This document shows positions 45,135 through 57,916 of a stretch of 64,000 nucleotides of DNA, one piece after another. The translations under genes and the position numbers were made by a program. This stretch comes from Pontibacter sp. SGAir0037 (GTDB taxonomy: Bacteria; Bacteroidota; Bacteroidia; Cytophagales; Hymenobacteraceae), in contig NZ_CP028092.1 in NCBI RefSeq assembly GCF_005491705.1, positions 930,001 through 994,000 of the forward strand, written 5' to 3'. How positions within the stretch are numbered: position 1 is the first letter of the stretch; each line of letters begins with the position of its first letter. Under the pieces are notes generated by a model. The model did not search any database. It was not told where the DNA came from and saw nothing but the letters and a program-made list of their open reading frames with translations.

Positions 45135-45731
45135 ATGAAACTAGATGATAAGGAGGAAGGTATCCGGGATGAGGTTCTGTGTAAAGCACAGAAGCTGTTT
45201 AAACGTTTTGGATGGGCTAAAACCACAATGGAAGACATAGCCAAAGCTGCAGGCAAGGGCAAAAGCACCCTTTACTACTACTATAAGAGTAAAGAGGAAA
45301 TCTTTGATGCCGTCGTGACCAGGGAGATGGAAGAAGTCTTCCGGATCACGAAGGAGGAAGTAGACAAGAAGCAAACGGCGGAGGAGAAGCTAAGGGCTTT
45401 TTCGGTTACGAAATTTCATATCCTGCAGCATAAGGAAAACCTTTGCGGGGTGGTACGCGGCGATATTCAGGCAAACATCCAGCATCTCCTGGAGCTAAAC
45501 CGGAGGTTTGAGCTTCGTGAAATAACCCTGGTGCGCAGCATACTGCGGTTCGGTCTGGAAAACGGTGAATTCGGTCATTTTAAAACGGCTGATACCGATG
45601 CTGTAGCCTTTGCCATGGTATGTGCTTTCCGGGGAGTGGAAATAGGGTTGCTGGTAGAAAACAAGGTGATCGACTTCGAAAGCAGAATGGATGTTATCCA
45701 TGATATTCTGATGCATGGTCTGAAAGCTTAG
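45135..45731 (+). CDS. TetR/AcrR-family regulator
   Basis: 198 residues. N-terminal helix-turn-helix of the TetR type: FKRFGWAKTTMEDIAKAAG, then KGKSTLYYYYKSKEEIFDAV. The C-terminal ligand-binding half is helical and not conserved. It is followed after 259 bp by the serine-palmitoyltransferase gene on the same strand. TetR regulators of lipid genes often sense acyl-CoA or lipids, so control of the downstream sphingolipid genes is a reasonable hypothesis, but no operator repeat could be identified in the spacer. Confidence 0.92.
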   Translation: MKLDDKEEGIRDEVLCKAQKLFKRFGWAKTTMEDIAKAAGKGKSTLYYYYKSKEEIFDAVVTREMEEVFRITKEEVDKKQTAEEKLRAFSVTKFHILQHKENLCGVVRGDIQANIQHLLELNRRFELREITLVRSILRFGLENGEFGHFKTADTDAVAFAMVCAFRGVEIGLLVENKVIDFESRMDVIHDILMHGLKA

Positions 45732-45861
45732 TTTCATTAGGAAGCCTTGCAGCGAGTAACGATTTGCGGGCAGAGACGCTGAAAATCCAAGATTAGTTCT
45801 TTAAGTTATGAACTAAAAAAAATATTCAGGAAAAGTATATGTTATGATAACATTATTTTTT

Positions 45862-45869
45862 TACCTTTG
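45862..45869 (+). promoter_or_regulatory. Candidate promoter of the sphingolipid cluster
   Basis: TACCTTTG matches the Bacteroidota -7 consensus TANNTTTG. It lies 121 bp before the serine-palmitoyltransferase ATG, leaving an AT-rich leader that includes a weak A/T-only hairpin (arms 45948-45956 and 45968-45976) just before the start. A -33 element is not clear. Confidence 0.45.
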
Positions 45870-45990
45870 CTTCGAATGAAATACGCTTCTGGTCTATAAG
45901 TATTTTTATATGCACATGGAAAAGAAGTTAACAATTAATTAAATTTAAAATAATAATAATTATATTGTTATTATTTAACAACATATTGAA

Positions 45991-47232
45991 ATGGGCAATC
46001 TACTTCGAGAAAAATTAATAGCCCGTGAGAAAAGCGCTGCATATCAGGCTGCTGAGAGGGCCATGGCTCAGGATGCTTATCCTTATTTCAGATCTATCTC
46101 CTCGGCTCAGGATACAGAAGTTGTCATTGATGGCAAGAAGGTGTTGATGTTTGGTTCTAATGCCTATTTAGGATTGACAAATCATCCCAAAGTTAAAGAG
46201 GCGGCCATAAAAGCCATTGATGTGTATGGCACCGGCTGTGCCGGCTCCCGCTTTCTAAACGGAACACTGGACATTCACCTGGAGCTGGAAGAACGGCTGG
46301 CCCAGTATGTCGGGAAAGATGCGGCGCTTGTGTTCAGTACTGGTTTCCAGGTTAACTTGGGGGTTATCTCCAGCCTGACGGGGCGCAACGATTACATTCT
46401 GCTGGATGAGTATAATCATGCCTCTATTATTGATGGCAGCCGCTTGTCTTTTTCTAAAGTGCTGAAATACCGGCACAACGACATGCAGGACCTGGAGCAG
46501 AAGCTGAGCAGGCTGCCTGCCGATGCTATTAAGCTGATCGTGGTAGACGGTGTGTTTAGTATGGAAGGCGATATTGTAAAGTTGCCGGAACTGGTGGCAC
46601 TGGCCGAGCGCTATGGAGGCAGCATTATGGTAGACGATGCACACGGTTTGGGTGTGATAGGGGAGGGGGGAGCTGGAACTGCTTCTCATTTCGGGCTGAC
46701 AGACAAGGTAGACCTGATTATGGGTACTTTCAGTAAGTCGCTTGCCTCTCTCGGTGGCTTTATTGCCAGCGATTACGATACAATCCAGTACCTGAAACAC
46801 CATGCACGCTCCCTGATCTTTAGTGCCAGCATGTCTCCTTCGTCGGTGGCCAGTACCCTGGCTGCGTTGGAAATAATACAATCGGAGCCGGAGCGGATAG
46901 AAAGGCTATGGGCCAATACCCGCTATGCCACGCAATTGTTAAGGTCGGCCGGGCTGGAGTTAGGGCCAACCGAAACGCCTATCATACCGGTTTACATCCG
47001 CGACAACGATAAAACATTTCAGGTAACGAAACTGCTGCAGGATAACGGCATTTTCGTGAACCCGGTGGTAGCACCGGCTGTGCCTGCCGACTCTACCCTT
47101 ATACGACTTTCTGTGATGGCGACCCATACTTTTAGCCAGATAGAAGAGGCGGTTGCCAAGATAGCGGATGCTTTTAAATCCCTGCATATAAATACGACGG
47201 CGGCAGCATATGAAACAAGTATTACCCGTTAA
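45991..47232 (+). CDS. spt: Serine palmitoyltransferase
   Basis: 413 residues, alpha-oxoamine synthase family, PLP-dependent. The sequence is very close to the characterised Sphingobacterium enzyme as I recall it. It joins serine and palmitoyl-CoA to 3-ketosphinganine, the first step of sphingolipid synthesis. Visible: [14 protein letters not shown] (79-92), the PLP-stacking His in YNHASI (143), DDAHGLG (215-221) with Asp and His, and the PLP Lys in TFSKS (249). The alternative family member, 2-amino-3-ketobutyrate ligase, is less likely given [12 protein letters not shown] and the neighbours. No membrane helix, as in other bacterial enzymes. It overlaps the next gene by 23 bp. Confidence 0.93.
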
Positions 47233-56197: not shown

Positions 56198-56201
56198 AAA
56201 C

Positions 56202-57152
56202 ATGAGCATAACAACTACGGCGCCAGGAGAAAAAAAGGGCGTGTCGCGAAAGGCGGTGCTGGTGATGCTGGCTTTATCGGTAGGGTACCTGCTGCTGTCG
56301 TACCTGTTGGTGGGTTTTAAAACTGATCAGCTAGCGCTGGTGGGGCTGGTAAACTTCCTGTATTATATTACACCTGTTACCAGAAAGTTTATAACCGGCT
56401 TCTCCATCTTTATCCTGTTCTGGGTACTGTTCGATTACATGAAGGCTTTCCCGAACTACTGGTTTAATGCGGTGCATATTGCAGACCTGTACCAGGCGGA
56501 GAAAGCCTGGTTTGGCATTAACCAGGGTGGTACTATCTTAACTCCGAATGAATACTGGCAGCAGCACAGTACCCCCTTTCTGGATGTAATGAGTGGCCTG
56601 TTTTACCTTAGCTGGATTCCGGTGCCCATGGGCTTTGCATTCTTCTGGTTCCTGAAAGACAGAAGGCAGTTTATTTACTTTCTGCTTACTTTTCTGCTGG
56701 TAAACCTGCTGGGTTTTATAGTGTATTACGTTTATCCGGCCGCACCGCCCTGGTATGTGCAGCAGTATGGGTTCGATTTTGTAGCCGCCACACCGGGTAA
56801 CACGGCTGGCCTGTCGCGTTTCGACGGTTTTTTTGGCATCAGCATTTTTCATTCGCTTTATTCCAAAAGCTCCAATGTATTTGCCGCCATGCCCTCGCTA
56901 CATTCGTCTTACCCGCTGATAGTCTTTTACTATGCTCTCCGGAACAGGCTTGGCTGGGCAGCAAACACCGTGTTTGGTATCATAACACTGGGTATCTGGT
57001 TTGCGGCGGTGTATACCTCGCATCACTATGTACTGGATGTGCTGGCCGGTATTACCTGTGCCGCCTGCGGTATTCTGCTGTTCAACGGGCTGATGAACAG
57101 GCAGGGCACATTAAGAAGAGCCGTGGACAAAATAGTGGCCGCTATACAATAA
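56202..57152 (+). CDS. PAP2/AUR1-like membrane transferase, probable inositol phosphorylceramide synthase
   Basis: Start at ATG 56202. 316 residues, six or so membrane helices. PAP2 motifs: PSLHSS (231-236) and SHHYVLDV (273-280) with the catalytic His and Asp. Before them is YPAAPPWY (178-185), a motif shared with the AUR1-type inositol phosphorylceramide synthases. The enzyme would move phosphoinositol from phosphatidylinositol to ceramide. It follows the hydroxylase after 4 bp. The final product, inositol phosphorylceramide, fits the rest of the cluster. Confidence 0.88.
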   Translation: MSITTTAPGEKKGVSRKAVLVMLALSVGYLLLSYLLVGFKTDQLALVGLVNFLYYITPVTRKFITGFSIFILFWVLFDYMKAFPNYWFNAVHIADLYQAEKAWFGINQGGTILTPNEYWQQHSTPFLDVMSGLFYLSWIPVPMGFAFFWFLKDRRQFIYFLLTFLLVNLLGFIVYYVYPAAPPWYVQQYGFDFVAATPGNTAGLSRFDGFFGISIFHSLYSKSSNVFAAMPSLHSSYPLIVFYYALRNRLGWAANTVFGIITLGIWFAAVYTSHHYVLDVLAGITCAACGILLFNGLMNRQGTLRRAVDKIVAAIQ

Positions 57153-57244
57153 GCTTTTAAAATTTATTACCAGTAATATACTTTCCTGTTTGCAGAAGCT
57201 GTATGGTCATTTGCTCCTGTCAGCAGGCTTTATTTAATTTGAAT

Positions 57245-57916
57245 ATGGATTCTAGTTATAATAGCAGTATTGCCTACAATGTGGCATTAGAGCGGCTCAC
57301 AGAGCTATCGGAGGGAGGCTACCTGGCTTTTTTGTATGACTGTGACGGCACCCTGGCCGACAACATGCAGGCCCATAAAGAAACCTATGTGAAAGTTGCC
57401 GCCAGTAAAGGCGTAACCATAGACCCTGCTATCATTGATGAGTTTGCCGGTTTGCCGATACCGGAAGTGGTAGTAGAGATAAACAAACGCTACGGCGCTA
57501 ACCTGGACCCGGAAGAATTTGTAGCCTTGAAATCGGACCTGTTTTACAACGAATTTATTCTGAAGACGAAGCCTGTACGCTTTGTGGTTGACCACCTGCT
57601 GAGCCACGTGGGCCGCGTAAAGATTGGTGTCGTATCTGGTGGTTCCAGGCGTATGATCCGGAAAACGCTGGAAGTGCTGGAAATTGACTCGCTGGTAGAT
57701 GTTTTAGTTTGTGCAGAAGACACGGCTAAAGGAAAGCCTTACCCGGATCCTTTTTTATTGGCTGCAGAAAAGCTTGGTGTCGCTCCTGAAGCCTGCCTGG
57801 TATTTGAAGATGGTAACCCGGGCATAAAGTCGGCCGAAGCAGCAGGAATGAACTGGATCAGGGTTGACAGAATTACACCAGTACATAATGTCGCTGCCTC
57901 TTCTTTAACAGAATAA
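57245..57916 (+). CDS. HAD-superfamily phosphatase (beta-phosphoglucomutase-like)
   Basis: Start at ATG 57245 (MDSSYNSS). 223 residues. HAD motif I YDCDGTLAD with the nucleophilic Asp, motif II VVSGGS, motif III with Lys in AKGKPYPDP and motif IV FEDGNPGI. The cap looks like the small alpha-helical cap of the phosphoglucomutase group. It ends the lipid gene run, 92 bp after the PAP2 gene, and could remove phosphate from inositol phosphate or a related metabolite; the substrate is unknown. The next gene is convergent. Confidence 0.88.
   Translation: MDSSYNSSIAYNVALERLTELSEGGYLAFLYDCDGTLADNMQAHKETYVKVAASKGVTIDPAIIDEFAGLPIPEVVVEINKRYGANLDPEEFVALKSDLFYNEFILKTKPVRFVVDHLLSHVGRVKIGVVSGGSRRMIRKTLEVLEIDSLVDVLVCAEDTAKGKPYPDPFLLAAEKLGVAPEACLVFEDGNPGIKSAEAAGMNWIRVDRITPVHNVAASSLTE

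Follow-up and report, generated by a model that had tools for sequence, protein, structure and literature searches.

In Bacteroides thetaiotaomicron, inositol sphingolipid genes lie at BT1522-1526 (PMC8791184, PMC9246714), which encode a myo-inositol-phosphate synthase (MIPS), a PgpA-type phosphatidylinositol-phosphate phosphatase, a GtrA protein, a phosphatidylinositol-phosphate synthase (PIPS) and an AUR1-like synthase. A carboxypeptidase-regulatory-like gene, BT_1527, is also near this operon, whereas the serine palmitoyltransferase (SPT) gene, BT0870, lies elsewhere in the genome. The spt, cerR and cerS genes of Caulobacter and E. coli B specify the ceramide half, namely an SPT, an acyltransferase of the YghO/CC_1154 type and an epimerase-type reductase (PMC9386255, PMC11324152). 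Such a trio is contiguous, in the order SPT-GNAT-SDR, on a Rubrobacter radiotolerans plasmid, where an LTA-synthase-family gene follows it and none of the genes annotated in the 13-kb stretch is an inositol gene. Here we describe a run of thirteen genes, all on the + strand, at positions 45135-57916 of a 64,000-nucleotide stretch of the Pontibacter sp. SGAir0037 genome (the window). In this run SPT, acyltransferase and reductase genes, in the Rubrobacter order, stand directly upstream of the five inositol genes, which keep the relative order of BT1522-1526, and genes for a DUF5686 protein, a DUF4833 protein, an FA2H-type hydroxylase and a TetR-family regulator are added.

By family assignment, the locus joins two known half-pathways and adds a hydroxylase, a regulator predicted to be dedicated to it and three further proteins (GtrA, DUF5686, DUF4833). 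We consider it highly probable that the run encodes every step needed to turn serine, acyl-CoA and glucose-6-phosphate into a lipid predicted to be 2-hydroxylated phosphoinositol dihydroceramide, with a TetR repressor of its own probably in control. In this scheme SPT would form 3-ketosphinganine, PIPS would use CDP-diacylglycerol to make phosphatidylinositol phosphate, and the PgpA-type enzyme would take off the extra phosphate. The FA2H-type enzyme would add a hydroxyl group to the amide-linked acyl chain, C-2 being the most likely position, the AUR1-like enzyme would transfer phosphoinositol from phosphatidylinositol to ceramide, and GtrA, DUF5686 and DUF4833 may carry lipid from one leaflet to the other or out to the outer membrane. 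TetR, acting on palindromes at its own promoter and that of SPT, would set flux at the committed step. The sequence itself shows which genes are present, their order and conservation, their catalytic motifs, their top matches in the host genome and sites resembling operators; product and mechanism are predicted from these. The yeast inositol phosphorylceramide (IPC) route likewise has AUR1-like and Scs7-like members (Aur1, Scs7) and the same predicted product class, while the window differs from it in its bacterial acyltransferase and reductase families and in the phosphatidylinositol-phosphate intermediate. The joined locus departs from two printed generalisations, that bacterial cerS always lies in another operon and that the ceramide genes of Bacteroidota are not close together. 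No description of such a locus was found in the titles and abstracts searched, a search that most subscription papers lay outside.

A first-pass annotation of this DNA had listed thirteen same-strand genes with named families, and this was borne out: the open reading frames (ORFs) are where it placed them, the families match in Pfam, and NCBIfam gives sharper names. Its wording that many of the genes overlap is a little strong, because overlaps occur at four junctions and the others abut or are gapped. Two of the four are SPT/GNAT (23 bases, 47210-47232) and GNAT/SDR (4 bases, 48328-48331); the other two depend on the start codon, namely GtrA/DUF5686 (51505-51524 if the ATG at 51505 is the start) and hydroxylase/AUR1 (if the TTG at 56187 is). 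The widest gaps are 259 bp, between TetR and SPT, and 160 bp, between PIPS and DUF4833.

To place this arrangement among its relatives, named genome contigs were scanned with a MIPS alignment, and the best 80 of 584 confirmed loci, a sample biased towards window-like MIPS, were annotated with the window's proteins. SPT, GNAT and MIPS homologues occur together at 37 of the 80. We call a locus joined when SPT, GNAT, MIPS, PIPS and AUR1 homologues lie within a single fetched stretch no longer than 21.3 kb; 32 of the 80 are joined, with loci cut by a contig end counting as misses, including some of the other 48. The window's gene order recurs at 29 of the 32, short genes sometimes being undetected, and leaving aside TetR, HAD and any hit scoring 50 bits or below, the genes of each of these 29 share a strand; two more begin with PIPS and carry the ceramide trio mid-run, and one has another order. 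The joining of both halves, which the annotation had proposed, is thereby found again in relatives, and the neighbourhood comparison it had suggested for Cytophagales reaches well beyond that order: the joined run spans Cytophagales, Sphingobacteriales and Chitinophagales, with carriers including Pontibacter, Rufibacter, Chryseolinea, Mucilaginibacter, Pedobacter, Nubsella and Chitinophaga. Six of the joined-locus proteins are 84% identical to those of an uncultured Pontibacter over 2603 aligned positions. At five Sphingobacterium loci (L091, L092, L095, L097, L109), no joined run was found beside MIPS.

An arrangement joined at 32 of 80 loci, and in the same order at 29, is far beyond chance. 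The gaps of 160 and 259 bp are what a chance neighbourhood of lipid genes without shared regulation might show, but we regard this explanation as extremely improbable: the order is kept across three taxonomic orders, and a TetR operator lies at both tetR and SPT (see below). Moreover, a quick tree based on six joined proteins (36 loci, 8 rows unlabelled) implies 4 order-label changes, one more than the minimum of 3, and so speaks for an old association that has been lost in places. As a separate observation, five contigs of 3-16 kb with MIPS, some with further cluster-type genes, are binned as Beijerinckiaceae, Desulfobacterales, Bdellovibrionales, Thiotrichaceae or Actinomycetes (L102, L104, L118, L124, L126); these may be mis-binned Bacteroidota contigs.

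The two halves also occur apart. One genome (G033) has its ceramide trio about 0.8 Mb away from its inositol half, Hymenobacter and Flavisolibacter relatives have the inositol half with SPT not near, and two genomes (G190, G002) carry the ceramide trio without a MIPS match. In G190 the trio is followed by DUF5686 and MIPS is missing, which hints that DUF5686 goes with the sphingolipid rather than with inositol. Halves that stand alone would suit two neighbouring, separate pathways, one making phosphatidylinositol for capsule or glycolipid anchors and the other making ceramides with other head groups, and inositol has been linked to capsule (PMC9246714). We nevertheless hold this to be improbable, as the run includes an AUR1-like enzyme, with IPC-synthase-type residues, that would join the two halves, and 29 of the 80 relatives keep one fixed order.

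In the ceramide half, the SPT (45991-47232) passes the curated NCBIfam cut-off for the Bacteroidota-type enzyme (NF047600, 717 bits against 640). It scores 580 bits to the Sphingobacterium SPT structures 8guh and 3a2b, against 244 bits to the cysteate acyltransferase 28eh. These scores bear on whether the first enzyme could instead be a cysteate acyltransferase, with the ceramide half leading to a sulfonolipid. The two enzymes belong to the same superfamily and sulfonolipids are known in Bacteroidetes (PMC9304779), but with the SPT equivalog cut-off passed and the structural scores so far apart, we judge this very improbable.

The GNAT acyltransferase (47210-48331) has a weak Pfam GNAT match and no NCBIfam model, but aligns with E. 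coli YghO over 100% of its length at 34.9% identity. A YghO search of the host genome returns the cluster GNAT first (229 bits; runner-up 104), and the match is best in both directions, the listed E. coli records (4.8 and 4.9 Mb) containing only one matching place. The protein also matches the GNATs that adjoin SPT in Rubrobacter radiotolerans and Aureispira. For the extended SDR reductase (48328-49320), assigned by Pfam, the query was the E. coli epimerase encoded with SPT, acyl carrier protein (ACP) and an acyl-AMP ligase; searched in one direction, it picks the cluster SDR first in the host genome (106 bits; next 46), with 30% identity over 325 aligned positions. PMC9386255 groups YghO (ECD_02850) with CC_1154, the acyltransferase of Caulobacter, and pairs ECD_02852 with CC_1164; by its position in the E. 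coli cluster, the epimerase is taken as the CC_1164/CerR homologue. Each E. coli protein having picked the cluster gene first, the earlier assignment of the two as bCerS-type and CerR-type is supported by homology. Among 296 sampled Bacteroidota genomes, SPT exceeds its cut-off in 11, and in 9 of these 11 a GNAT homologue adjoins it (by coordinates or fetched neighbourhoods), that of G033 being divergent; in the other two (G230, G238), SPT was the only cluster gene found within the fetched stretch. Separately, a Roseomonas mucosa plasmid (L134:14189-16122) carries a YghO-type GNAT directly 3' of a sterol-desaturase-family gene and of genes of the LptF/LptG family; SPT, ACP and a CDP-alcohol phosphatidyltransferase are encoded nearby, which makes it a further candidate for a sphingolipid cluster with a hydroxylase.

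The inositol half had been likened to the Bacteroides inositol-lipid cluster, and its enzymes agree with this. MIPS (49359-50681), assigned by Pfam, matches the inositol-3-phosphate synthase chain 7nwr, presumably the BT_1526 structure, at 568 bits over residues 3-423. PIPS (54132-54851) passes NF052561 (403 bits, cut-off 350) and carries the motif given in PMC9246714, DX2DGX2AR...GX3DX3D, which is present in 63 of 63 collected homologues (this and the other homologue motif counts include a few duplicate rows from two collections). The AUR1-like PAP2 protein (56187-57152), a predicted phosphoinositol transferase to ceramide, was assigned by Pfam, NCBIfam and profile; its profile (A3) matches yeast Aur1 (9vj3) at E 1.3e-23. 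PSxH and HHxxxD are present in 53 of 53 of its homologues, and His-His-Asp residues have roles in Aur1-type enzymes. In B. thetaiotaomicron, the inositol sphingolipid disappears, or almost disappears, when BT1522, BT1523 or BT1526 is deleted (PMC8791184, PMC9246714), and loss of BT_1525 leads to accumulation of phosphatidylinositol phosphate (PMC9246714), a deletion described as unobtainable in PMC8791184.

The PgpA-type protein (50691-51152; PF04608) is a predicted phosphatidylinositol-phosphate phosphatase, and the distribution of its family over 38 genomes, hand-chosen from earlier results, is supporting evidence. Its gene is the sole PF04608 gene of the host genome. The family occurs in all 11 genomes whose MIPS lies in an inositol-half or joined setting, two of which (G261, G214) carry it elsewhere in the genome. 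It occurs in none of the 5 in which MIPS is present and PIPS, AUR1 and SPT went undetected beside it (G444, G461, G452, G238, G178); of the 22 genomes lacking a MIPS match, one has it (G249). That genomes without the inositol half lack PF04608 fits an inositol-lipid phosphatase rather than a phosphatidylglycerol-phosphate phosphatase.

Two observations stand beside this half. Long isolate contigs of Lysobacter arvi (L096) and Lysobacter changpingensis (L098) carry a Bacteroidota-type MIPS (77% identity) with the rest of the cluster not near, which suggests transfer of an inositol gene to Gammaproteobacteria. Within the window, a second PAP2-domain protein (526 aa) is encoded on the same strand at 43280-44860, ending 274 bp before tetR; it was not detected in the run of relatives, where no search for it was made.

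The Scs7/FA2H-type fatty acid hydroxylase (55577-56197), assigned by Pfam, by Scs7 structures and by conserved motifs, was detected at 27 of the 32 joined loci. Among solved structures, the search for relatives yielded only Scs7 (4zr1 and 4zr0; 7e-30), and the histidine clusters with an HGxHH...RLVxPP segment occur in 35 of 35 homologues. PF04116 covers several reactions, so the enzyme could act elsewhere, on C-4 of the long-chain base (as Sur2 would), on a free fatty acid or on another lipid, giving a product that is not 2-hydroxyacyl. No Sur2 structure was found for comparison, and we give this possibility appreciable weight while thinking it unlikely: Scs7 is the sole solved relative found, the segment is invariant in the homologues, and myxobacteria have functional 2-hydroxylases resembling FA2H, tied to sphingolipids by a paper cited there (PMC10002949). 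By analogy with FA2H and these myxobacterial relatives, hydroxylation of the acyl chain would most likely be at C-2. Two metagenome-assembled genomes, assigned to Bacteroidales (L119) and Bacteroidetes (L123), have both halves with PIPS first and the ceramide trio mid-run; the hydroxylase was not found at either, which would be explained by its loss in oxygen-free habitats.

The run opens with the TetR-family regulator (45135-45731; PF00440, 54 bits). A TAnnTTTG box, which we take to be the Bacteroidota -7 element, lies at 45105-45112 and is followed by a 21-bp palindromic operator, GACCGTAAAACGAATTTGGTC (45113-45133), 1 base 5' of the tetR start codon. Upstream of SPT, a TACCTTTG box (45862-45869) precedes a weaker operator copy at 45874-45894. 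This palindrome behind its box and the weaker copy before SPT are new here. Of 17 TetR homologues scoring at least 100 bits (the window included), 12 have GACYN13RGTC between -150 and +90 relative to the ORF start, with 0.01 expected per stretch, whereas the same stretch of other genes contains it at 1 of 81 for MIPS, 0 of 55 for PIPS, 0 of 45 for AUR1, 2 of 48 for DUF5686, 0 of 37 for GNAT and 1 of 34 for SDR.

A weight matrix built from the twelve tetR sites was then applied to SPT upstream regions, which lay outside matrix building. The window's site scores 12.1 bits, second-best in the 64-kb window and reached in 1 of 1000 shuffles. At a threshold of 7 bits, set after the scores were seen, a site precedes SPT in 7 of the 10 joined relatives that carry TetR and in none of the 27 that lack it. 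In the host genome the consensus occurs with no mismatch only at the tetR site and with one mismatch at one further site, and 7 of the genomes of 12 loci chosen from the 80 have a single perfect match each, all at the cluster; the cluster sites are present by construction, as the consensus was drawn from them, while their being the sole perfect matches is not. With palindromes at its own and SPT promoters tracking its presence, the regulator is probably a dedicated repressor of the locus. The further host site, with a TAnnTTTG box and 1 mismatch (G000:C1:915032-915052; L155:1501-1521), lies about 15 kb before the window and precedes the gene of a 250-aa membrane protein with no Pfam family over cut-off and no homologues in 12 other genomes; it may be there by chance.

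The remaining genes encode accessory proteins. The GtrA-family membrane protein (51153-51524) and the CarboxypepD_reg + DUF5686 protein (51505-54108), both assigned by Pfam, may act in transport, judging by position, by family and by the BT1524 phenotype, and the DUF5686 protein is presumably located in the outer membrane. Loss of the GtrA gene BT1524 lowered IPC and raised phosphatidylinositol in one study and had no effect by thin-layer chromatography in the other (PMC8791184, PMC9246714). The DUF4833 protein (55012-55575; TTG start; Pfam) is modelled with a low-confidence N-terminal helix followed by a confident all-beta part, and the model has no clear match among solved structures. The homologue in Pontibacter korlensis (P0006) is publicly named CDP-alcohol phosphatidyltransferase, likely a misnaming that stems from the PIPS gene next to it. 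The HAD-IA hydrolase (57245-57916; Pfam, NCBIfam) is probably peripheral. HAD and TetR had both been counted in the thirteen-gene run and are present here, but across the best 80 loci HAD occurs only at the three joined Pontibacter loci and is probably outside the pathway, and TetR occurs at a minority of joined loci (see below).

Several results weigh against the route and its regulation as proposed. A TetR homologue of at least 100 bits occurs at 10 of the 37 loci with SPT, GNAT and MIPS, and regulator and operator are missing at most of them. At up to 2 mismatches the consensus has 32 matches in the 12 genomes against 55 for a reversed control, and 2 against 3 in the host. The AUR1-like protein reaches 335 bits (E 3e-100) to NF052609, the phosphoinositol dihydroceramide synthase equivalog, and misses its cut-off of 480; it is therefore filed as AUR1-like rather than as a member. 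The simple SPT lysine pattern, present in the window's SPT, is found in 35 of 43 collected homologues. GNAT homologues (E <= 1e-15), most of them much weaker, occur in 285 of the 296 sampled Bacteroidota genomes, and presence of the family alone consequently means little. The hydroxylase was not found at 5 of the 32 joined loci (L119 and L123, both rearranged, L115, L053 and L055), and SDR, PgpA or GtrA went undetected at some Mucilaginibacter loci. Within the host's order MIPS is patchy, occurring in 7 of 194 genomes: the window's and G381, whose contig ends after DUF5686, have both halves, two have the inositol half, and three have MIPS without PIPS, AUR1 or SPT. The 259- and 160-bp gaps allow more than one transcript, and for Flectobacillus major a genome-based prediction failed (PMC9246714).

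More tentatively, and as a proposal we think somewhat unlikely as a whole, the joined locus could be ancient in environmental Bacteroidota and the Bacteroides split derived, with TetR and its 21-bp operator switching the SPT step in TetR-bearing lineages and GtrA, DUF5686 and DUF4833 forming the flipping and outer-membrane export machinery for this lipid.

If the proposed route is right, one locus would hold everything for a yeast-type inositol sphingolipid in a bacterium, and published impressions that cerS never shares an operon with the remaining ceramide genes, and that in Bacteroidota the genes lie scattered, would need qualification. DUF5686, DUF4833 and GtrA would become named candidates for carrying sphingolipid to the outer membrane, regulation of bacterial ceramide synthesis would become directly testable, and so would the question of whether hydroxylated inositol sphingolipids are widespread among the Bacteroidota of soil and water. 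A single locus is likely to encode the whole route and, in some lineages, is likely to be where it is turned on and off.

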